The notes below the pieces were generated by a model. That model was given only the letters and a program-made list of their open reading frames with translations, did no database searches and was not told the origin of the DNA. A DNA stretch of 64,000 nucleotides from Oceanidesulfovibrio marinus (GTDB lineage: Bacteria > Desulfobacterota > Desulfovibrionia > Desulfovibrionales > Desulfovibrionaceae): NCBI RefSeq assembly GCF_013085545.1, contig NZ_CP039543.1, positions 2,883,322 to 2,947,321 of the forward strand. The letters run 5' to 3'. Positions 38,070-49,810 of this stretch are shown here, piece after piece. A program made the position numbers and the translations under genes. Each line of letters starts with the position of its first letter. Within the stretch, counting starts at the first letter, position 1.

Positions 38070-38275
38070 CGGTCCTGACGGGAGCGGGCAGGTCTTCGGA
38101 CTTGCGGGCGTGTGCGGCATGCTCGCCGCCTTCCTCGCCCCCCGACTTCCCGGCATGCTCGCCAGTGTCTCACTGTGGGGGCTCGTTCCCGTTCACCGCT
38201 GCGGGGCAGCTCCGGATTCGCACCGGATTCCCTTTTCACCCGGACTGGTCCGGGCACCTGCTCTGGTCATTTTTT
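38070..38275 (-). promoter_or_regulatory. Cobalamin (B12) riboswitch controlling nrdDG
   Basis: Read on the minus strand, the leader has the ordered conserved blocks of the cobalamin riboswitch. GGTGCGAATCCGGAGCTGCC and CCGCAGCGGT lie around 38190-38235, ACACTGGC around 38161-38168, and GAAGACCTGCC around 38087-38097, with helices between them. It lies about 130 bases upstream of nrdD. B12 riboswitches often repress B12-independent isozymes, which fits a class III reductase. Confidence 0.92.
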
Positions 38276-38283
38276 AGAGCTGG

Positions 38284-38605
38284 CGGACTGCAAAGTCAAA
38301 TCGCGCCTGCCACATAAGAGATTGGTTTATTTATAGAAAATGCCAGAAAGTGACAGCACTGCAAGCTGACAATGGGTTGAAATTACGGAATTAACCGAGC
38401 CAATTTGGCTGACAGGAAAAAATTCTAGAAAAAATCTCAACGAATCGTTCCTGCCTCGGATGGAGGCTCTGCCGGAAGCTCCGCGACGGCACGGCGAGCA
38501 CCTTCTGGCAGGTGTTCGACTCATATGGATGTGCTGGACGCTTCCACCCCTCAAAAGAATCTCGGATCATCGAGGCGGCGCGGGAAAAGCCCCTGCTGCG
38601 CCATG
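38284..38605. other. Non-coding AT-rich stretch, probable nrdD promoter region
   Basis: No gene is seen. On the minus strand a TATAAA -10-like element (38330-38335) precedes the riboswitch by about 50 bases, with a poor -35 (TGCTGT) 17 bases upstream. The region marks the edge of the lower-GC segment that runs to 46.3 kb. Confidence 0.35.
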
Positions 38606-38637
38606 AAAAAGAGGGTGCCGTGAAACACGGTCACCCT
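38606..38637 (-). terminator. Terminator following the tRNA-Phe-like fragment
   Basis: On the minus strand AGGGTG-A-CCGTG pairs with CACGGCACCCT (one bulged A), followed by CTTTTT. It lies just downstream of the tRNA-like fragment, the same layout as the intact tRNA-Phe and its terminator at 46264. Confidence 0.75.
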
Positions 38638-38645
38638 GTTAAATG

Positions 38646-38696
38646 TCATGGCCAAGGGACAGAATCGAGCTACCGACGCAGGGGCTTTCAGCCCGC
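38646..38696 (-). pseudogene. tRNA-Phe 3'-part fragment (possible att scar)
   Basis: This stretch resembles the 3' two-thirds of the intact tRNA-Phe at 46308-46383. It shares the identical 14-mer AGGGACAGAATCGA (38655-38668), the CTGAAA anticodon-loop core, a T-arm that still folds (GGTAG/CTGTC with G-U pairs), and the TCATGG flank beyond the 3' end. The 5' part (D-arm and acceptor 5' strand) is missing, and the CCA end has a two-base deletion. Orientation is the same as that of the intact gene, as expected for the far end of an element integrated into a tRNA 3' end. Confidence 0.7.
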
Positions 38697-38871
38697 GTTC
38701 ATATGGTGGGTGGGGAACCTTCGACTTCGACAACACCGGACGACCGCATTCCACTTGTGACGGCGGCAAGCCGATGTATCTATATCAAAACCCCAGGCCA
38801 GAGGGGCGCCCTGTCTGACCTAGCCCGGGAAGGCGGCGCAGCCCGTCACCATATTTCCACCGCACCGCCGC

Positions 38872-39978
38872 TCAGCTGTCCGAGGAGCCGGCTCTATAGG
38901 CCGCTACGAATTTATTCGCCTGCGTTATGGCCTCTTCAACACTCTCGATCGTCACCGGGATGGACATATTGTGGATGCGGCTTTTCGGGCGGAGCACAAA
39001 CGTTGCCGTCTTGCGAAGCTGTTCTGCATCCGGTTCGGGTATGCCCAGGTCTTTCAGTGATGCCGGCAGACCCACCGCGGTGTAGAAGTCCAGCATATCC
39101 TTCATGAACGCGTCGTCTCGTTTTTCCAGCATGAACTGGGCGATCAGCCCCAACGCGACCTCCTCGCCGTGCAACACGCCCTTGGCTCCCGGCAAATCCG
39201 CCAGGGCCATGCCGATGGCGTGCGCGGCGGCCACACCGCAGCCTTCAAAGCCAAGCCCGCTCAAAAGCGTGTTGGCCTCGACGACCTTCTCGACAGCCTC
39301 GCTGACGCGCTGCTCCCGCACGTGGCGAACCGCCTCCGGAGCATATTTGCGTACGATCGTATAGCAGGCGTCGGCAAGACAGATGGCGGCCTCGGTCGGT
39401 CTGGCGCCGAAGAAGTTATCGCAACCGGAAGCGACACACTGATCTGCCTCGAACTTCGTGACCAGCGCATCCGCAATGCCTGCTATGAAAAACCGGACAG
39501 GCGCGCGGGCTACAATCCCTGTATCGACCAGCACCGCATCCGGATTGTTTTCCAGAAACCGCGGTCCGATGAAGGTGCCGTCGTCGTTGTAGGTGATGGC
39601 AAGCCTGCCGGTGGCGGAGTCGTTGGACGCGATTGTCGGCACGATGATCACGTGGATGCCGGTTTCGATCTTCACGGCCTTGGCGGTATCGATGGCCTTG
39701 CCGCCGCCAAAGCCGAGAACGCAGTCGCAGCCTTCGTCCCGGGCTTTTTGTGACGCGCTTTCGATAGCAGCAGGAGAGCATTCGCCGCCAAAGTCCACAA
39801 ACAGCGGCGTAATGTCCTCTCGCTTCAAGGCCTGAACAAGCGCCTCTTCATAAAGACTCCTGACAAACGCATCGGCGACAACCAGGGGCTTTTTACCGAA
39901 CGGCCGGACATACTCTCCAATGTTATCAAGTAGTCCGTCCCCCAGCTTGTACACCAGCGGAAAACCCATCGCTTTCAT
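38872..39978 (-). CDS. GldA-like metal-dependent alcohol dehydrogenase
   Basis: 368 residues from the ATG at 39978 with GGAGG upstream; the longer frame lacks one. The NAD-binding segment VLGFGGGKAIDTAKA lies near residue 85, then VPTIASNDSATGRLAI near 112. Metal ligands appear in the expected places: Asp in AGIADALVTKFEA, His in AAAHAIGM and His in GVLHGEEVALGL. It belongs to the glycerol-dehydrogenase branch of the iron-type alcohol dehydrogenases. Last gene of the aldolase-kinase-TRAP operon. In the sulfo-sugar hypothesis it would reduce sulfolactaldehyde to dihydroxypropanesulfonate; otherwise it may oxidise a polyol. Confidence 0.88.
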   Translation of the reverse strand: MKAMGFPLVYKLGDGLLDNIGEYVRPFGKKPLVVADAFVRSLYEEALVQALKREDITPLFVDFGGECSPAAIESASQKARDEGCDCVLGFGGGKAIDTAKAVKIETGIHVIIVPTIASNDSATGRLAITYNDDGTFIGPRFLENNPDAVLVDTGIVARAPVRFFIAGIADALVTKFEADQCVASGCDNFFGARPTEAAICLADACYTIVRKYAPEAVRHVREQRVSEAVEKVVEANTLLSGLGFEGCGVAAAHAIGMALADLPGAKGVLHGEEVALGLIAQFMLEKRDDAFMKDMLDFYTAVGLPASLKDLGIPEPDAEQLRKTATFVLRPKSRIHNMSIPVTIESVEEAITQANKFVAAYRAGSSDS

Positions 39979-40005
39979 CTCAAAAAACCTCCGTCCCAAA
40001 AGTAA

Positions 40006-40028
40006 CGGGGCGCCACGCTGACGCCCCG
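40006..40028 (-). terminator. Hairpin between TRAP binding-protein gene and dehydrogenase gene
   Basis: CGGGGCG (40006-40012) pairs with CGCCCCG (40022-40028); on the minus strand TTACTTTT follows. Probably partial termination or mRNA-end protection after dctP. Confidence 0.5.
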
Positions 40029-40068
40029 CCACTCATAGAGACACATTATAGACGTTACACAACCAGTG

Positions 40069-41100
40069 TCACTGATTGTTTACTTTCGCTTGTGCTTCTT
40101 CCACGGCGCTGAGCATGATCTTCAACCATTTGTCGCCATACTTTTCGACGTACCAGTCCTCCATATGCTGCCTGGCGCCGAGGAACGTCTCCCGGTCCGC
40201 GGCCGTGGGCTCGTAGATCTCGCCGCCCGCGGCGATAAAGTCCTCGTTGGCGCTGGCTTCCGTCTCTGCATTGAACTTGGTCTGCTCTGCGGCGGCTGCG
40301 GTGAACCCGTCCAGCACGACCTTCTGCAGGTTCTCGGGCAGGCTCTTCAGCCAGCTGTCGCTGACAAAGTAGTAGCCAAAGAGGAAGGTGTGGCGATCCA
40401 GGATCAGGTGCTTGATGCTCTCGTAAAACTTGTTGGACATGACGTCCGGCGTGCCGTTCTTGGTGCCGTCGACAACGCCGGTGGCCAGCGCCGTATACAG
40501 CTCGCCCCAGGCGACAGGCGTTGCCGAGGCGCCGAGGCTCTTGACGAACTCCTGCTGCAACGAAGAGCTGATGGTCCTGATCTTCAGTCCTTTCAGATCG
40601 TCAGCCGTATGGATTGCCTTGTCCGTGGTGAAGAATGAACGCCAGCGGCCGCCGTCGCTGACTGCGGTCAGCCTGACATTGGGCAGCTGTTCAAGGATCG
40701 CATCGCGCATCTTGTCGGTGAAGGACCCTGCCATGAATGCGTAGGCCACCTCGTCATTGGGCAGGACATACTGCAGATCCACAACACTCAGCTCCGGGAT
40801 GAACGGAGTCACGCCGCCGATGGAAACGTGAGCCGATTCCAGAACACCGGCGTTCACCTGCTCCATTACCTCTTGATAATTGCCGAGCTGGTTGCCGGGA
40901 AAGATCTGAACCTCGATCGCGCCATCCGACTTTTCCTCGATGTACTTTTTGAGGGAGGTCGACCCGACGTAATCGTCGTTGTTCATTGTGGCCGGACCCG
41001 CATGGGCAATCTTCAGGGTGAAGTCCGCCGCAGCCGCCGGGTTGGCCATCAGCCCGACCATAACCACAAACGCGACGATACACATGGTGAGCTTCATCAT
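40069..41100 (-). CDS. TRAP substrate-binding protein (DctP family) of the aldolase operon
   Basis: 343 residues from the ATG at 41100, with AAGGAG five bases upstream. A Sec signal peptide ends PAAAA, before DFTLKIAHAGP. The ligand arginine is present in DLKGLKIRTISS near residue 165, followed by ATPVAWGELYTALATGVVDG, as in DctP proteins that bind acidic ligands. This differs from the first TRAP binding protein at 4.5 kb, which lacks that Arg. A carboxylate or sulfonate sugar is therefore a plausible ligand. Confidence 0.9.
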   Translation of the reverse strand: MMKLTMCIVAFVVMVGLMANPAAAADFTLKIAHAGPATMNNDDYVGSTSLKKYIEEKSDGAIEVQIFPGNQLGNYQEVMEQVNAGVLESAHVSIGGVTPFIPELSVVDLQYVLPNDEVAYAFMAGSFTDKMRDAILEQLPNVRLTAVSDGGRWRSFFTTDKAIHTADDLKGLKIRTISSSLQQEFVKSLGASATPVAWGELYTALATGVVDGTKNGTPDVMSNKFYESIKHLILDRHTFLFGYYFVSDSWLKSLPENLQKVVLDGFTAAAAEQTKFNAETEASANEDFIAAGGEIYEPTAADRETFLGARQHMEDWYVEKYGDKWLKIMLSAVEEAQAKVNNQ

Positions 41101-41126
41101 GCACTCCTTCTTTGAAAGGTTGTTTG

Positions 41127-42410
41127 TCATACAGGAAATCCCAACAATCTTGGCAGAGTAAGCGATATCACCGGGCAGAACGTTATCAGAATCAGAACGA
41201 GGCCCTGGATTAGGTAGAAAGGCAGCATCTCGCGAACGATTGTCTCGACCTTGACGCCCGACACGGCGGAAGAGGCGAACAGCGCCAAACCAAACGGCGG
41301 TGTCGCCAACCCCATGGTCAGGTTGAGGCACATGATCACGGCGAAATGGACCGGGTTGATGCCCAGACCCAGCATGGTCGGTCCCAGGATCGGCCCCAGG
41401 ATCAAAATCGCTGGTCCCGCATCGAGAAACATGCCTGTAATCAGCAACAGCACATTGGCGACAATCAGGAACACGGCCGCATTGTCGGTCAGGCCGATCA
41501 CAAGCCGCGCAAGCGATTGTGGCACGCCTGCAATATTCAGCACCCAGCCGAACAGCGAAGCCGAGCCGATCATCAGCAGGATGATCGCTGAGGAACCTGC
41601 AGACCGGCGCAATATCTTTGCCAAATCGCCAACCTTCAGCGATCGAATCGCAAGGCTCAGGATGAGCGCGTAGACCACCGCGACCGCAGCAGCCTCGGTG
41701 GGGGAAACAATGCCCAGCAGGATGCCGCCCAGAATGATGACCGGGGTAAGGAGCGGAAAAAAGCCCTCGAACGACGCATGGGCGACTTCCCTTGCCGTGG
41801 CCCTGCTCTCCTGCTTCGGCAGATTATGCTTCCGGGCGATGAAGGCCGTCATGATCATTAGCCCCACACCCATCAACAGGCCTGGTATGAAACCGGCGGC
41901 GAACAGCGCTCCGACCGACACGTTCATGATGTAGGCGTAGACGATCATGATGATGCTTGGCGGTATGACCGGACCAATGATCGATGAAGCCGCAGTCACC
42001 GCCGTGGCAAAGGAACGCTTGTAGCCGTCTTGCTCCATGGCCGGGATAAGCATCGATCCCAGCGCCGAGACATCCGCGACGGCAGAGCCGCTCAGGCCCG
42101 CGAACAGGATCGAGCTGAGGATATTGACGTGCGCGAGTCCCCCGCGGCAGTGGCCGATCAATACCTGCGCCAGCCTGACAAGGCGATGGGTAATACTCCC
42201 GGCGTTCATGATCTCACCCGCCAGGATGAAAAGCGGGACCGCCACAAGAGGGAACTGGTTGATTCCTGCAAACATGCGCTGCAAGCTGATCTGAAGCAAA
42301 GCAGCATTGCCTTGCAGGGAGAACCCCAGCAAGGGACCGAACGCCAGTGCAAAGACGATCGGCACGCCTATCAGTGCGGTGACGATGGTGAAAATAATGA
42401 AGAGGGGCAT
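41127..42410 (-). CDS. TRAP transporter large permease (DctM family)
   Basis: 427 residues and about 12 helices, with the family motif SSIIGPVIPPSIIMIVYAY near 147 and the first-helix segment TALIGVPIVFALAFGP. It lies 19 bases after the small permease and is followed by the binding-protein gene 26 bases later; the order Q-M-P is common. It is the ion-coupled translocation channel for the sugar-type substrate. Confidence 0.92.
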   Translation of the reverse strand: MPLFIIFTIVTALIGVPIVFALAFGPLLGFSLQGNAALLQISLQRMFAGINQFPLVAVPLFILAGEIMNAGSITHRLVRLAQVLIGHCRGGLAHVNILSSILFAGLSGSAVADVSALGSMLIPAMEQDGYKRSFATAVTAASSIIGPVIPPSIIMIVYAYIMNVSVGALFAAGFIPGLLMGVGLMIMTAFIARKHNLPKQESRATAREVAHASFEGFFPLLTPVIILGGILLGIVSPTEAAAVAVVYALILSLAIRSLKVGDLAKILRRSAGSSAIILLMIGSASLFGWVLNIAGVPQSLARLVIGLTDNAAVFLIVANVLLLITGMFLDAGPAILILGPILGPTMLGLGINPVHFAVIMCLNLTMGLATPPFGLALFASSAVSGVKVETIVREMLPFYLIQGLVLILITFCPVISLTLPRLLGFPV

Positions 42411-42429
42411 GGGCGGATATCCTATTCAA

Positions 42430-42921
42430 TCATTCGGACTGTACGAACGGGCTTAAGATGTTCTCGATGCACAGCGGCACGATCAAGGCGAACCCGACAG
42501 GCAGCGCAAGATAGGAGTAGCCGTGGGAAAGCCAGTCCATGGACGGGATGATTCTGGCCATCCCCTGTTTGACGAACGGAACGCCGTATACGATTACCGT
42601 AATCGCCACGAAGAGAACCGCAGCATTGGCAACCGCGCACAGCAATTTCGAGCATGCCTTGGGAAGCCTGTCAGAGGCGAGGTTGGTAGCGATGTGACCG
42701 CCCCGCATGCCCACCGGCGCCCCCAGGAACGACATCCAGACAAGACAGACAAGCGTGAAGTCCTCGCTCCACGGAATGGGGTTGTTCAGGCAGTAACGCC
42801 AGACGACGGAACAGAACAGCAACCCCGCCAGCACCCCCAGCAGAACGGTGAGGATGGCTTCGCACATCTTGATTATCAGGGTATTGCACAGCACAAGGCC
42901 GCTGAACGCACGCTTGAGCAT
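42430..42921 (-). CDS. TRAP transporter small permease (DctQ family)
   Basis: 163 residues from the ATG at 42921 (AGGGA ribosome site), with four helices and the DctQ core YCLNNPIPWSEDFTLVCLVW near 48-67 followed by GAPVGMRGGHIATN. It precedes dctM by 19 bases and follows the kinase gene by 75 bases. Confidence 0.9.
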   Translation of the reverse strand: MLKRAFSGLVLCNTLIIKMCEAILTVLLGVLAGLLFCSVVWRYCLNNPIPWSEDFTLVCLVWMSFLGAPVGMRGGHIATNLASDRLPKACSKLLCAVANAAVLFVAITVIVYGVPFVKQGMARIIPSMDWLSHGYSYLALPVGFALIVPLCIENILSPFVQSE

Positions 42922-42996
42922 GTTCCCTTCCCTCACTTCACTACTTCAGTTGGTCGACACATGGTTCTCGCTCCTGACAACGAAACGGCCAACGAA

Positions 42997-43890
42997 CTAT
43001 ACGTGGCCGAGAAATACATCGACCTGCTCCCGGGTCGGGATACCCGTTGAACCCCCGGGGACAGTGCATTTCAACGCGGCGGCGGCGCTGGAAAAACGGA
43101 GCGCCTGCTCTATCCCCATGCCTTCCGCCAGCCCCACGGCAAAGGCGCCATGAAAGGTGTCGCCTGCGCCAAGCGTGTCTACGCAATCAATTTCGAACTT
43201 GGGCATGTGCTTGAAGATGTCGCCGTCCATCCAGCAGCACCCTTTCTCGCCTGCTGTGATGGCCACCCATCTGCCCGTTGCCTTGGCTGTTGCGCGAAGG
43301 TTTGCTTCCAGGTCTTTCTGTCCACCTACCAGTTCCGCGCCGCCTTCGGAAAAGACGATGTAGTCGGCCAGGGAAACCAGGGCTGTTGTGTCATACGGGG
43401 CCATATCCCCATCTATGACTGTGGTGATGCCCTTTTTCCTGGCGTACTCCAGCGCCGCACGTCCGCCTTCGGGCCAACGCACGTCGGCAAGAACCACGTC
43501 GGCTTGTCCAATGACGTCCCAGGGCAGCCAGGATGCATCCGGAGCGATATCCGCGTCACTGAAGTTGACCACCTGCCGTTCACCGTGGCTGTCCACAACA
43601 ACGGAAGAAACCTGCGTGGAAAAGCCGTCCACAAGCCGAACGCATGAGGCGTTCACCCCGCGTTCAGTCAACGAGTCCACCATGAACCGGCCACCGGCGT
43701 CATTTCCAAGGCGGCCGATGAACCATGCCTCGTGCCCCATCGCCGCAACGGCAAGGGCGGCGACAGCGGCAGGGCCTCCGGCGGCCGCGGCATAGTGCGT
43801 GGCGAAGAACTTGCCCCCACCGGACGGGAGCTCGTTGACCCGAAACATGTAGTCCATACAGCCGAGGCCGACGCAGACAATCCTGGCCAT
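42997..43890 (-). CDS. PfkB-family sugar kinase resembling sulfofructose kinase YihV
   Basis: 297 residues. PfkB motifs are intact: AGGPAAVAALAVAAMG near 37-52 and the catalytic TLGAGDTFHGA near 245. Compared from memory with E. coli YihV, the pattern matches without gaps through residue 140. The three side chains reported to hold the sulfonate of sulfofructose in YihV are all present at the same numbers: Lys27 (GGGKFF), Asn109 (VVNFS) and Arg138 (LADVRW). The shared LADVRW, DGD.AP.D and FSE..GAELVGG-type blocks support the grouping. I infer phosphorylation of a sulfonated (or similarly charged) ketohexose. It sits between the aldolase and TRAP genes. Confidence 0.85.
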   Translation of the reverse strand: MARIVCVGLGCMDYMFRVNELPSGGGKFFATHYAAAAGGPAAVAALAVAAMGHEAWFIGRLGNDAGGRFMVDSLTERGVNASCVRLVDGFSTQVSSVVVDSHGERQVVNFSDADIAPDASWLPWDVIGQADVVLADVRWPEGGRAALEYARKKGITTVIDGDMAPYDTTALVSLADYIVFSEGGAELVGGQKDLEANLRATAKATGRWVAITAGEKGCCWMDGDIFKHMPKFEIDCVDTLGAGDTFHGAFAVGLAEGMGIEQALRFSSAAAALKCTVPGGSTGIPTREQVDVFLGHV

Positions 43891-43903
43891 GAAACAATCC
43901 GCC

Positions 43904-44746
43904 CTATGCTGCCTTGTTTACCGAATTGAACAACACCATCTTCTTTGACACCGCGGAAGCTATGGCGGCGATACCGCATTCGAAATCTTGCAGCAGCCCG
44001 CTGTCAGGGGATGCGTTGAGCTGAGCGGTGAGGGCGTTTTTGCAAGCGACCTGGAGACCCGTGTTCACGTTGATCTTTCGAATCCCATTGGCGACAGCAT
44101 CTTTGACGTGCTCATCAAGGACTCCGGAGGCGCCGTGCAAGACGAGCGGAGCTTTGATCTTTTGGTGCAGTGCTCGCAGCAGATCCTGATCCAGGGAGGC
44201 GCCGGCTGTTTTCATGCCGTGGATAGACCCCAGGGAAACCGCGACGAGATCCACCCCGGTGCGCTCTACGAACTCAACGGCCATGTCCGGATCAGTCATG
44301 TCTTTTTCGGAAACCGGATCCGTGCCGTGGGGAACGATGCCCACCTCGCCCTCCGCTGTGGCGCCGTGGTCGTGAGCCATAGCGACCACTTCTTTTGTCT
44401 TGGCGACATTTTCCTCGAAAGGAAGCGCGGAACCATCGAACATGACGGAGGTGACGCCCAGCTCCAACGCCCGGCGCACCAGCTCCACGTCCCTGGAGTG
44501 GTCGATATGGATTGCGACCGGCACATCCGATTCTTCAGCAACGGCCCGGCACGCGGCCACGAGGGGCTTGAGCCCTATGTATTTGATAGAAAGCATGCCC
44601 ACGGCAAGAATGGCGGGCGAACGATTTTCGCAAGCGGCTGTCACCACCCCTCTGGCAAACTCAAGGTTGTGGACGTTGAAATGGCCGACAGCCCAATTGT
44701 CGTCATACCTCAAACCCAACTCATTCACATTAACAAGGTTCAACAC
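43904..44746 (-). CDS. Class II (zinc) ketose-bisphosphate aldolase
   Basis: 280 residues, the GatY/KbaY/FbaA class II family that splits ketose 1,6-bisphosphates or 1-phosphates into DHAP and an aldehyde. The catalytic Asp and metal His are in HIDHS near 81. Further metal ligands are Glu in AEGEVGIVPHG near 134, His in SLGSIHGMK near 177 and His in LVLHGASGV near 207; the KINVNTGLQ phosphate loop is near 227. E. coli sulfoglycolysis uses a class I aldolase (YihT), so this would be an unrelated replacement if the pathway is a sulfo-sugar route. First gene of the operon. Confidence 0.9.
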   Translation of the reverse strand: MLNLVNVNELGLRYDDNWAVGHFNVHNLEFARGVVTAACENRSPAILAVGMLSIKYIGLKPLVAACRAVAEESDVPVAIHIDHSRDVELVRRALELGVTSVMFDGSALPFEENVAKTKEVVAMAHDHGATAEGEVGIVPHGTDPVSEKDMTDPDMAVEFVERTGVDLVAVSLGSIHGMKTAGASLDQDLLRALHQKIKAPLVLHGASGVLDEHVKDAVANGIRKINVNTGLQVACKNALTAQLNASPDSGLLQDFECGIAAIASAVSKKMVLFNSVNKAA

Positions 44747-44817
44747 AATTCTCCAAATAATTAATGTGTTAGCATAAGCACATCAGGACCCGCTTGGTCA
44801 TTCTTGACTTTATGAAA

Positions 44818-44846
44818 ATAGTGTAAAATATCTATCAAAACGTCAA
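44818..44846 (-). promoter_or_regulatory. Sigma-70 promoter of the aldolase-kinase-TRAP operon
   Basis: On the minus strand TTGACG (44841-44846), a 17-base spacer and CACTAT (44818-44823) form a good sigma-70 promoter. The leader of about 65 bases contains an inverted repeat ATGTG-N10-CACAT (44764-44783), a candidate operator for the divergent DeoR-type regulator. Confidence 0.65.
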
Positions 44847-45037
44847 GTTTTTTTCAAATTGCGGCCACCATTTTGTCACTTTGATACAATTTCTAGGTAA
44901 TTATGGAAAAAAAATTACAGCACCTGACAGGGTTGCCGTCAGCCGAAAAAGTCGGCCATATGGACGCAAATGCTGTCGATAAAGACTTTCAGGATGCAGT
45001 TCCGTTCATCGGCAGCGTAAACACCTTAAACACAATC

Positions 45038-45066
45038 TTGCAAAGTGTAACACGCCCTACTATGTT
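45038..45066 (+). promoter_or_regulatory. Sigma-70 promoter of the DeoR-type regulator
   Basis: TTGCAA (45038-45043), a 17-base spacer and TATGTT (45061-45066) precede the regulator gene by about 100 bases. The intergenic region 44747-45165 is AT-rich and otherwise empty. Confidence 0.5.
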
Positions 45067-45165
45067 ATCGATTCATTGAATATCTGGACACGCGAACGGA
45101 ATTGATGAACAGCAAACACATTTCGCACATGAATACTTAATCATTTTATGAAGGAATGCGGTAGC

Positions 45166-45945
45166 ATGAAGGTACAGAGCAGGCGCGAGCTCATATCCAA
45201 GCTGGTCAATGAACAGGGTTTTGCATCCTTGGAGTTTCTGGCCGAAAAGTGTGGGGTGTCAACCCAGACTATCCGGCGGGATCTGCAAGCGTTGTGCGAT
45301 GACAATATGATTACACGCCACCATGGCGGCGCAAGTCCAAACTCTTCTCTGCTCAACACCAGCTATGACGTGCGACGTATCTCTCTGCTGCCGGAGAAGC
45401 GGGAGCTCGCAGCAGAAGCCGTCCGCCAAATTGCGCCAAACCGCATGCTCTTTCTCTCCGCGGGTTCGACAATGGAGGTGGTTGCCCAAGAGCTCAAGAA
45501 GCTCTCTTCCATCTGCGTCCTGACCAACAACTTGCATGCCGCCATGCACCTGTACCGGGAAGAGAACATCGACTTGTTCATGTCCTGCGGACAGGTCCGC
45601 AAGAGCAATGGCGGCATTGTCGGCACCAATTCCATCGATTTTGTGTCCAACTTCCGCGTCGACTATATGATCATGGGTATCGGAGCAATCTCACCGGACG
45701 GTTTATTGCTTGAGTACGACTACAATGAAGGCTTGCTCATGCGACGTATGATGCAGAACGCCAACAAAGTAATCCTCGTTACGGACTCGACAAAATACGA
45801 GCGCAATGCAACGGTCAAGGTCGCCCATCTCAGTGACGTGGACATCCTGGTCACGGACCAGGAACCTCCTGTCGCCATTGCCGATATCTGTAGCTCGAAC
45901 AATGTCCGCGTCGTCATCCCGCATGGCATGCACGAGGACAAATAG
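45166..45945 (+). CDS. DeoR-family repressor (GlpR/YihW-like)
   Basis: 259 residues from the ATG at 45166, which has AAGGAA upstream; the earlier ATG at 45148 has none. The N-terminal winged HTH includes VSTQTIRRDLQAL and ITRHHGGAS. The sensor domain has the sugar-phosphate pattern AGSTMEVVAQEL, LTNNLHAAMHLY and LLLEYDYNEG. GlpR, and YihW of the E. coli sulfoquinovose cluster, belong to the same subfamily and respond to pathway phosphates. It is divergent from the aldolase operon, which it probably represses until the substrate is imported. Confidence 0.9.
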   Translation: MKVQSRRELISKLVNEQGFASLEFLAEKCGVSTQTIRRDLQALCDDNMITRHHGGASPNSSLLNTSYDVRRISLLPEKRELAAEAVRQIAPNRMLFLSAGSTMEVVAQELKKLSSICVLTNNLHAAMHLYREENIDLFMSCGQVRKSNGGIVGTNSIDFVSNFRVDYMIMGIGAISPDGLLLEYDYNEGLLMRRMMQNANKVILVTDSTKYERNATVKVAHLSDVDILVTDQEPPVAIADICSSNNVRVVIPHGMHEDK

Positions 45946-46263
45946 ACGCACGCACTTCTGGAACGCCAGACGACTCCGATGCGCCAGCCTGAACGTGCTC
46001 GGGTTTATGAAACCGTCGCTATCCCGCACAACAAGCCACCGCACCCTTGAACAGGGGTGAATACGCCCTGACACCACGCCACATGGCGGCCGCGCCGTCC
46101 AGACTGGGTATCGAGGCGTTGCAAAGCGTCACGAACCCTTCCAAGGAGAGCGGGCAGGCTCGCACAACGCGACTTGGTATGAGAATGATAGGTTGCCAGG
46201 ACTGACGATTGGCAACCTGCAGGACCGTGGGCATCGAGCAAGGCGTACATCCACACCGGCATG
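45946..46263. other. Non-coding stretch between the repressor gene and tRNA-Phe
   Basis: No gene can be supported. A perfect 9-bp hairpin AGGTTGCCA (46190-46198) / TGGCAACCT (46210-46218) lies here without a T-run. In the island model this is the inner margin of the element next to the tRNA 3' end. Confidence 0.4.
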
Positions 46264-46298
46264 AAAAAAGGGCTTGGCGAAAATTTCGCCAAGCCCTT
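46264..46298 (-). terminator. Terminator of tRNA-Phe
   Basis: AAGGGCTTGGCGAAA and TTTCGCCAAGCCCTT form a 15-bp perfect stem (46268-46298), with Ts on the minus-strand exit side. It begins 10 bases after the tRNA 3' end. Confidence 0.92.
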
Positions 46299-46307
46299 GA
46301 AATATCA

Positions 46308-46383
46308 TGGTGCCGAGGGACAGAATCGAACTGCCGACACGGGGATTTTCAGTCCCCTGCTCTACCAACTGAGCTACCTCGGC
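46308..46383 (-). tRNA. tRNA-Phe (anticodon GAA)
   Basis: 76 bases including an encoded CCA. Acceptor GCCGAGG pairs with CCTCGGC. The D-arm is TAGCTCAGTTGGTAGAGC, the anticodon arm GGGGA-CTGAAAA-TCCCC with GAA at 46348-46350, and the T-arm GGCAG-TTCGATT-CTGTC. All stems pair. Its 3' end faces the aldolase/TRAP cluster, and a partial copy lies 7.6 kb away at 38.65 kb. Confidence 0.97.
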
Positions 46384-46446
46384 CCAAAGAGAAGGTCTTT
46401 TACAGAATGGCGGCCGGGTCGGTCAAGGATTTTCCCAGAAAAAAAT

Positions 46447-48275: not shown

Positions 48276-48875
48276 CTATTCCACAATCTTGCCGATACGG
48301 TTCCAGCGGAAGTTGTCCAGGCCGTTGCTTGACCAATAGATCATCCAGGCCTTTCCGACAACGGCGCTTTTGTCCACAAAGCCCCAAAAGCGTGAATCCA
48401 GGGATTCATCGCGGTTGTCGCCCATCACGAAGTACTTGCCTTCGGGCACGGTACGCGGCGCCATGTTGTCGCGCATGGTCTGGAAGTGCGGATCGGTGTG
48501 CTGAACATACGGCTCGTCGAGCTTCTCGCCATTCACGTACACATCCTTGTTGCGAACCTCCACGGTGTCGCCTGGCGCGCCGATAACGCGCTTAATGAAA
48601 TCCTCGCTCGGGTCCTTTGGATACTCGAAGACGATAATATCCCCGCGCTCCGGCTCGGAGAACTCTATAAGCGCGATATGCGTGTAAGGAATCTTGAGGC
48701 TGTAGCTGAAGCGGGGAACAAGAATGTGGTCCCCGATCTGGAGTGTTTCGAGCATCGATCCGGACGGAATGACAAACGACTGGACAATGAAGGCCCGGAT
48801 TATGATCGCGAGAATGAACGCGAGGACAATGGATTCCGTATAGTCTTTGAGTATCTTCCGCCAGCGGGGGGTCAT
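48276..48875 (-). CDS. lepB: Signal peptidase I, copy 1
   Basis: 199 residues. A membrane helix near residues 13-32 is followed by the catalytic Ser in IPSGSMLETLQIGDHILV near 37 and the general-base Lys in IKRVIGAPGDTVEVRN near 92. The GDNRDESLDSRFWGFV box is near 152. It cleaves Sec and Tat signal peptides at the periplasmic face. It is very similar to the next gene upstream, and both keep all catalytic residues. Confidence 0.95.
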   Translation of the reverse strand: MTPRWRKILKDYTESIVLAFILAIIIRAFIVQSFVIPSGSMLETLQIGDHILVPRFSYSLKIPYTHIALIEFSEPERGDIIVFEYPKDPSEDFIKRVIGAPGDTVEVRNKDVYVNGEKLDEPYVQHTDPHFQTMRDNMAPRTVPEGKYFVMGDNRDESLDSRFWGFVDKSAVVGKAWMIYWSSNGLDNFRWNRIGKIVE

Positions 48876-49207: not shown

Positions 49208-49810
49208 TTATCGTACGATGTCGCCGATCCGGTTCCAGCGGATGTTGCTCACGCCCCGCCATGACCAGTAGATGACCCAGGCCTTGCCCTCAATCTTGTG
49301 CCGGTCCACGAATCCCCAGAAGCGCGAGTCGTGCGATTCGTCGCGGTTGTCGCCCATGACGAAGTACTCGTTCTCCGGCACGGTGCGCGGCGCCATGTTG
49401 TCGCGCAAGCTTTCCAGTATTCGCGAGTCCGTGTGCTGTACGTACGGCTCGTCGAGCTTCTTGCCGTTCACGTACACGTCCTTGTTGCGAATCTCCACCG
49501 TGTCGCCGGGCAGACCGATGACGCGCTTGATGAAGTCCTGGCTGGGGTTCACGGGGTACTCGAAGACGATGACGTCCCCGCGCTCGGGCTGGGAGAACTC
49601 CACCACCTCGATGTCCGTGAACGGGACCTTGACGCCGTAAATGAGCTTGGAGACGAGCAGGTGGTCGCCGATCTGCAGGGTTTCGAGCATGGAGCCCGAG
49701 GGGATTTTGAAGGCCTGGACAAAGAAGGCGCGGATGATCATCGCGAGAATAAAGGCGATGACGATGGCTTCGGTATATTCCTTGAGCATCTTTTGCCAGC
49801 GTGGGGTCAT
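49208..49810 (-). CDS. lepB: Signal peptidase I, copy 2
   Basis: 200 residues, with Ser in IPSGSMLETLQIGDHLLV, Lys in IKRVIGLPGDTVEIRN and GDNRDESHDSRFWGFV, matching copy 1 almost throughout. It lies 45 bases downstream of lepA, the classical lepA-lepB arrangement, so this copy is likely the ancestral one. Divergence from copy 1 is mostly in the N-terminal helix and in the loop around residues 55-70. Confidence 0.95.
   Translation of the reverse strand: MTPRWQKMLKEYTEAIVIAFILAMIIRAFFVQAFKIPSGSMLETLQIGDHLLVSKLIYGVKVPFTDIEVVEFSQPERGDVIVFEYPVNPSQDFIKRVIGLPGDTVEIRNKDVYVNGKKLDEPYVQHTDSRILESLRDNMAPRTVPENEYFVMGDNRDESHDSRFWGFVDRHKIEGKAWVIYWSWRGVSNIRWNRIGDIVR

Follow-up and report, generated by a model that had tools for sequence, protein, structure and literature searches.

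A seven-gene block beside the tRNA-Phe gene of Oceanidesulfovibrio marinus is probably what remains of an old island of 7.7 kb, one that would have inserted into the tRNA gene at its 3' end, that now lacks an integrase, and that carries a truncated operon resembling those of the sulfo-Embden-Meyerhof-Parnas (sulfo-EMP) route of sulfonated sugar breakdown. We put the probability of this reading at about two in three. The block lies within a stretch of 64,000 nucleotides (the window, C1:2883322-2947321) of a genome that consists of a single contig of 4.76 Mb, and whose place in the order Desulfovibrionales is indicated by its relatives and by named homologues. An earlier note on this DNA had proposed an island bounded by tRNA-Phe and carrying a sulfo-sugar-type catabolic operon.

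A tRNA-Phe gene and its probably displaced 3' half

The sole tRNA gene that ARAGORN finds in the window is an intact tRNA-Phe(GAA) on the reverse strand at 46308-46383 (Rfam RF00005, 70.4 bits), whose 3' end faces the block. It is followed on the same strand by a terminator hairpin (46264-46300) with a T run and a perfect stem of 15 bp, formed by an inverted repeat, 46268-46282/46284-46298, that is 100% complementary. At the far end of the block, and in the same orientation, lies a 3' fragment of tRNA-Phe (reverse strand, 38648-38694) that corresponds to tRNA nucleotides (nt) 29-76 with a 2-nt deletion near the 3' end, followed by a terminator of its own at 38604-38640 (reverse strand), recognised because the alignment with the other terminator extends through this segment. 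The pairing of gene and fragment is the longest direct repeat between 37.9 and 47.5 kb, with 38651-38694 matching 46312-46355 over 44 nt at 82% identity, in the same orientation and with a spacing of 7661. In a search of all 4.76 Mb the fragment matches its own genome's tRNA-Phe with E=4.7e-7, and its alignment score is 48, where 901 other segments of the window reach at most 24 and 2000 shuffles at most 29. The alignment stops at tRNA nt 29 and extends outward beyond the 3' end across the terminator, so that the tRNA 3' half (nt 29-76) and its terminator form one repeated unit. The intact gene, the fragment in the same orientation and the separate terminators described in the earlier note are all present, and the direct repeat, the alignment and the boundary that it shares with islands in relatives mark the fragment as a probable relic of an attachment (att) site.

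Islands at tRNA-Phe in related genomes

The same arrangement recurs within the family. In G111, G121, G330, G116 and G119 an intact tRNA-Phe and a 3' fragment in the same orientation stand 6.6-39 kb apart, the fragment beginning at tRNA nt 24-29 and adjoined by a tyrosine integrase (loci L211, L212/L213, L216, L220/L221 and L222/L223, respectively), while a tRNA-Phe fragment and an integrase are also seen in G143, G144 and G016. The start of the window fragment, at nt 29, falls within the nt 24-29 range of those five genomes and of G143 and G144. Both tRNA-Phe copies are followed by a terminator in all five complete islands and in G016. That the fragment's terminator differs from that of the intact gene was considered as a contradiction of integration and dropped, since the two terminators align and the integrase-bearing islands share the layout with two terminators. 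The anatomy of the window is exactly that of the integrase-bearing tRNA-Phe islands of its relatives, minus the integrase. On these controls, with their matching fragment boundary, an origin of the block as a tRNA island is very probable, and the geometry of integration at a tRNA 3' end put forward in the earlier note gains their support.

The events would have been as follows. A tyrosine integrase would have recombined the element with the host at about nt 29-76 of tRNA-Phe, whereby the element would have brought a new 3' half and terminator to give the intact gene at 46308-46383, and the host's original 3' half and terminator would have been pushed to the far end, at about 38604-38694. The surviving cargo would be a single operon and its regulator. 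Because the fragment has decayed, the integration event would be old.

Within the Desulfovibrionaceae, tRNA-Phe is a recurrent integration site, and a family of tRNA-Phe-specific elements can be discerned there that swaps both the 3' half of the tRNA and its terminator. In G016 (L042:5257-6723) the integrase reading frame seems to have its start on the antisense strand, inside the tRNA-Phe 3' fragment. The congener G001 has a 3' fragment of its own (nt 34-76) with a terminator at L029:419-504, beside genes mostly absent from the window's genome, and this terminator is 93% identical to that of the window's intact tRNA-Phe; no intact tRNA-Phe was found in the G001 assembly. The G001 fragment is a further sign of tRNA-Phe as a hot spot. 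An adjacent gene with TOBE and recombinase folds was rejected as an integrase, since it reads toward the fragment and matches molybdate regulators.

A probable reduced sulfo-sugar operon

Pfam and NCBIfam searches bear out the gene content that the earlier note had listed. Six of the seven genes lie on the reverse strand, in the order class II aldolase (43904-44746), PfkB kinase (42997-43890), the three components of a tripartite ATP-independent periplasmic (TRAP) transporter, namely the small permease DctQ (42430-42921; Pfam PF04290, 89.6 bits), the large permease DctM (41127-42410; TIGR00786, 421.8 bits) and the substrate-binding protein DctP (40069-41100; Pfam PF03480, 215.8 bits, with SiaP/IseP-type TRAP binding proteins as its PDB matches), and a GldA-type iron/zinc alcohol dehydrogenase (38872-39978; NCBIfam NF006941, 398 bits, cut-off 336) that scores about 241-246 bits against the glycerol dehydrogenases of the PDB. 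The seventh, on the forward strand, is a divergent regulator of the DeoR/GlpR family (45148-45945; Pfam PF00455/PF08220), a family that includes CsqR/YihW. Judged by family, one operon would unite a ketose kinase, a ketose-1-phosphate aldolase and an aldehyde oxidoreductase.

Among solved PfkB kinases, the sulfofructose kinase YihV is nearest to the block kinase by both sequence and fold. In phmmer searches the kinase scores 255.9 bits against YihV (7ag6), 193 against the next chain and near 111 against ribokinases, and its structure model (pLDDT 94.7) superposes on the YihV-sulfofructose complex with Z 46.0 and a root-mean-square deviation of 1.3 over 296 residues, the next protein reaching Z 41.6. 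Alignments place Lys27, Asn109 and Arg138 of YihV, which we take to bind the sulfonate, in the block kinase, and these residues are missing in ribokinases. The best solved matches of the aldolase, again by sequence (170 and 167 bits) and by fold (Z 40.9 and 40.1, model pLDDT 92.3), are the class II sulfofructose-phosphate aldolases YaSqiA of Yersinia and HpSqiA of Hafnia, and together with its operon context they make it a candidate sulfofructose-1-phosphate aldolase.

Operon context offers the strongest evidence of function. Orthologues of the kinase (51-56% identity), the aldolase (61-66%) and the regulator (54-60%) are found in operons of metagenome-assembled genomes (MAGs) of Desulfobulbaceae and Desulfosarcinaceae, where they are accompanied by a TRAP transporter, a GH31 glycosidase and a homologue of sulfoquinovose isomerase. 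The isomerase has sulfoquinovose isomerase as its sole NCBIfam match, at 308 bits and below the strict cut-off, and the GH31 proteins are nearer to alpha-xylosidase than to YihQ, so that their putative role is taken from their neighbours. The description of the block as a sulfo-sugar type of operon is supported by these orthologues and by the affinity of the kinase to YihV.

The operons L084, L085 and L087 of these MAGs, and L075/L076 of the group g48, are apparently fuller operons of the sulfoquinovose type in sulfate-reducer lineages, with an isomerase homologue, GH31, kinase, class II aldolase and TRAP genes, and in some a mutarotase. A lyase near the L085 operon is not claimed as SuyB, since NCBIfam gives galactarate dehydratase, below the cut-off.

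The block operon is best read as a reduced, hybrid sulfo-EMP module that would be entered at a sulfonated ketose. The TRAP system would take up a sulfonated sugar, and the YihV-like kinase would phosphorylate C1 of a sulfonated ketose, either 6-deoxy-6-sulfofructose or a close relative. Cleavage by the class II aldolase would then give dihydroxyacetone phosphate (DHAP), which would pass to glycolysis, and 3-sulfolactaldehyde, which the GldA homologue, as a proposed sulfolactaldehyde (or polyol) oxidoreductase, would reduce to dihydroxypropanesulfonate (DHPS) for export or for desulfonation elsewhere. The DeoR-type regulator would derepress the operon in response to a pathway intermediate.

Distribution and composition of the block

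Distribution was examined in one congener (G001), in 348 genomes of the order and in 394 further genomes drawn across the phylum, and in the order and phylum samples the cargo is patchy, as in islands at tRNA genes. At 1e-40 nothing in G001 matches the aldolase, and in the order sample a protein about 60% alike occurs in only one other genome, G337 (Desulfovibrio sp. UBA6079), the next four genomes reaching 45-52%; the 394 genomes of the phylum sample yield no match to the kinase above 37% identity. Among the cases that the earlier note had set against its own proposal was that of the same block, at the same place and with the same tRNA fragment, in all relatives, and the block is instead absent from G001 and from nearly all of the 348. 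Between 31.3 and 46.7 kb the window has no counterpart in G001, whose matching sequence ends at about 31.3 kb and picks up again, on a different contig, at 46.7 kb.

In G337 (L073/L086) all seven genes are present in the same order and orientation, at 44-66% identity. The sole tRNA-Phe of this genome is intact and lies 2.9 kb beyond gldA, on the side that matches the window's fragment, and no tRNA-Phe fragment was found at the locus. This nearness of operon and tRNA-Phe may be chance, because the intervening FAD gene adjoins tRNA-Phe in G016 without the operon. Just downstream of the G337 tRNA-Phe (L086:18414-18486), what appears to be a 3' piece of a different tRNA precedes a toxin-antitoxin-like pair.

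The lower GC content reported for the block in the earlier note stands with respect to its neighbours and is modest with respect to the genome. GC at third codon positions is 0.72 in the block, 0.83 in the rest of the window and 0.78 in a genome sample, where 13% of seven-gene runs are equally low, and overall GC of 38872-45945 is 0.568 against 0.616 in 400 kb sampled evenly round the chromosome, where 11% of 7 kb stretches are equally low. This contrast agrees with a foreign origin without proving it. Later mobile-element traffic at the tRNA edge is shown by a relic of an IS481-family insertion sequence, 61 bp of its 5' end at about 46094-46154 (forward strand), which is 84% identical to two genomic copies. 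These copies are intact, 1.2 kb long and 97% identical to each other (L078:5936-7149 and L079:8817-10030), and their open reading frame matches the IS481 transposase model NF033577 at 270 bits. No evidence was found for this element as the mover of the block.

Weighing the alternatives

Several observations weigh against a sulfonated-sugar operon delivered by a tRNA-specific element, some touching its function and others its origin. As to function, searches of the window's genome gave no match to an SqvD-type isomerase beyond E=0.03 and no PF07221 protein of the YihS type, and GH31 (PF01055) is absent from the window's genome, from G001 and from G337 in searches that detected their positive controls; G337 likewise yields no SqvD-type isomerase, and in the YihS-type search a sub-threshold hit only. 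The fold scores of the aldolase differ by a small margin between SqiA (Z 40.9) and ordinary fructose-bisphosphate aldolases (39.0), and a small, long-branched tree places the block aldolase in a clade apart from the SqiA of Yersinia and Hafnia. Moreover, the sulfolactaldehyde reductases of sulfo-EMP pathways described so far are of the YihU type, not the GldA type (PMC12890257). With no sulfoquinovose isomerase or GH31 enzyme in the genome, known enzymes offer no way into the route from sulfoquinovose, so that the pathway, which the earlier note held to be self-contained, is not so from that sugar, and a ketose should be the entry point of the module. The simplest candidate for this substrate is sulfofructose; other possibilities are a ketose without a sulfonate group and a sulfonated polyol that the GldA homologue would oxidise.

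With a non-sulfonated ketose or polyol as substrate, the GldA homologue would convert the polyol to a ketose, the PfkB kinase would phosphorylate the ketose at C1, and the aldolase would yield DHAP and an aldehyde, for instance glycolaldehyde or lactaldehyde. GldA-type enzymes use small polyols and ketones, and the block's homologue scores 358 bits, under the cut-off, against the glycolaldehyde reductase model NF053832; the lack of an upstream isomerase and GH31 enzyme, and a tree that does not clearly make the aldolase an SqiA, also favour such a pathway. The kinase, however, is clearly nearer to YihV than to any ribokinase or fructokinase, and three of the block's genes, those for kinase, aldolase and regulator, have orthologues in operons that include a homologue of sulfoquinovose isomerase, which leaves a non-sulfonated substrate on the doubtful side.

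As to origin, no similarity to an integrase is seen in the block or in the window near it, as the earlier note had said. When the interval from the fragment to gldA was compared by blastn and tblastx with seven controls for leftovers of an integrase, convincing matches were confined to the tRNA core and the terminator side. Because the integrase is absent, the block is classed as the decayed remains of an island and not as a complete element. (A supposed decayed IS3-type transposase at 38716-38820 had no family match and was dropped.) No empty site was seen in G001, where none could be shown because this genome differs on both flanks. Finally, since the core identity is only 82%, a partial tandem duplication of the tRNA is formally possible.

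If the fragment were the decayed second member of a tandem tRNA-Phe pair, the operon could have been inserted between the two by IS481-mediated or homologous recombination, for example, with no tRNA integrase involved. Tandem tRNA-Phe pairs 160-240 bp apart do exist in the relatives G008, G021 and G034, the repeat takes in the terminator, and the IS481 relic lies inside the edge of the block. Yet the fragment ends at nt 29, as integrase-made fragments do in several relatives, a point at which a decaying gene would have no reason to end, and integrase-made islands in relatives likewise have terminators on both copies; a decayed tandem pair is for these reasons an unlikely source of the boundaries. 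An old, vertically inherited locus, lost in most relatives and only incidentally beside tRNA-Phe, would suit the complete and collinear operon in a family member of another genus (G337) and the modest genome-wide GC contrast, but is improbable given the absences in the congener, in nearly all of the order sample and, above 37% identity, in the phylum sample, together with close orthologues in other families and a tRNA-Phe fragment with an att-type boundary.

Other features of the window

A strong cobalamin riboswitch (38070-38276, 119.7 bits) precedes nrdD, the gene for anaerobic ribonucleotide reductase, and a second nrdD-like gene lies at C1:3649209. An adjacent tandem pair of similar signal peptidase I-like genes occupies 48276-48875 and 49208-49810.

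Possible sulfoglycolysis among sulfate reducers

The Desulfovibrionaceae have been described as bacteria that use DHPS or isethionate (PMC6278857, PMC13219744), and sulfate and sulfite reducers as secondary users that take up the C2 and C3 sulfonates which other bacteria leave behind (PMC6278857, PMC12890257, PMC13219744). A 2026 review assigns sulfo-EMP to Gammaproteobacteria and Actinobacteria and sulfo-EMP2 to Firmicutes (PMC12890257), and no report of sulfoglycolysis in Desulfobacterota was found in the literature searched, which is weak evidence given partial journal coverage. It is a tentative suggestion that some sulfate reducers run sulfoglycolysis themselves, and that the lineage of the window may keep a mobile lower half of the pathway, beginning with a sulfonated ketose, or with a sulfo-polyol oxidised by the GldA homologue, that a dedicated TRAP system would import. 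If this were true, a single molecule could supply one cell with carbon and, after desulfonation, with sulfite as electron acceptor; the sugar-cleaving step would lie inside sulfate reducers, and plant sulfolipid would reach hydrogen sulfide by a shorter route. A sulfofructose-type operon would also have been spread by tRNA islands in the Desulfovibrionaceae, with fuller operons in the Desulfobulbaceae and their relatives.

Comparison with known systems

Genomic islands of the Islander type, made by tyrosine integrases and delimited by a regenerated tRNA gene on one side and the displaced fragment on the other, are a classical kind (PMC4383910). The block shares with them the regenerated tRNA gene, the displaced 3' fragment opposite in the same orientation, and foreign cargo between the two, and differs from them in that its integrase has been lost and its att core has decayed to 82% identity.

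The cargo looks like a cut-down version of machinery that other microbes use on sulfonated plant sugars. Like the sulfo-EMP system of Escherichia coli (the yih genes), it has a YihV-like PfkB kinase and a local regulator (CsqR/YihW in E. coli, PMC10991401); unlike that system, it has a class II and not a class I aldolase, a reductase of the GldA and not the YihU type, a TRAP transporter, and no counterpart of YihQ, YihR or YihS. In the hybrid clusters of Vibrio (PMC13372026) and Yersiniaceae (PMC9594981), sulfo-EMP-type genes are likewise joined to a class II, SqiA-type sulfofructose-phosphate aldolase, although these clusters encode a sulfoquinovose isomerase and the block aldolase falls in a separate clade. 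With the sulfoquinovose-type operons of Desulfobacterota (L084, L085, L087 and L075/L076) the block shares an orthologous kinase, aldolase and TRAP transporter, and with the first three also the regulator, whereas those operons add a sulfoquinovose-isomerase homologue and, mostly, a GH31 glycosidase or mutarotase, and are without GldA.

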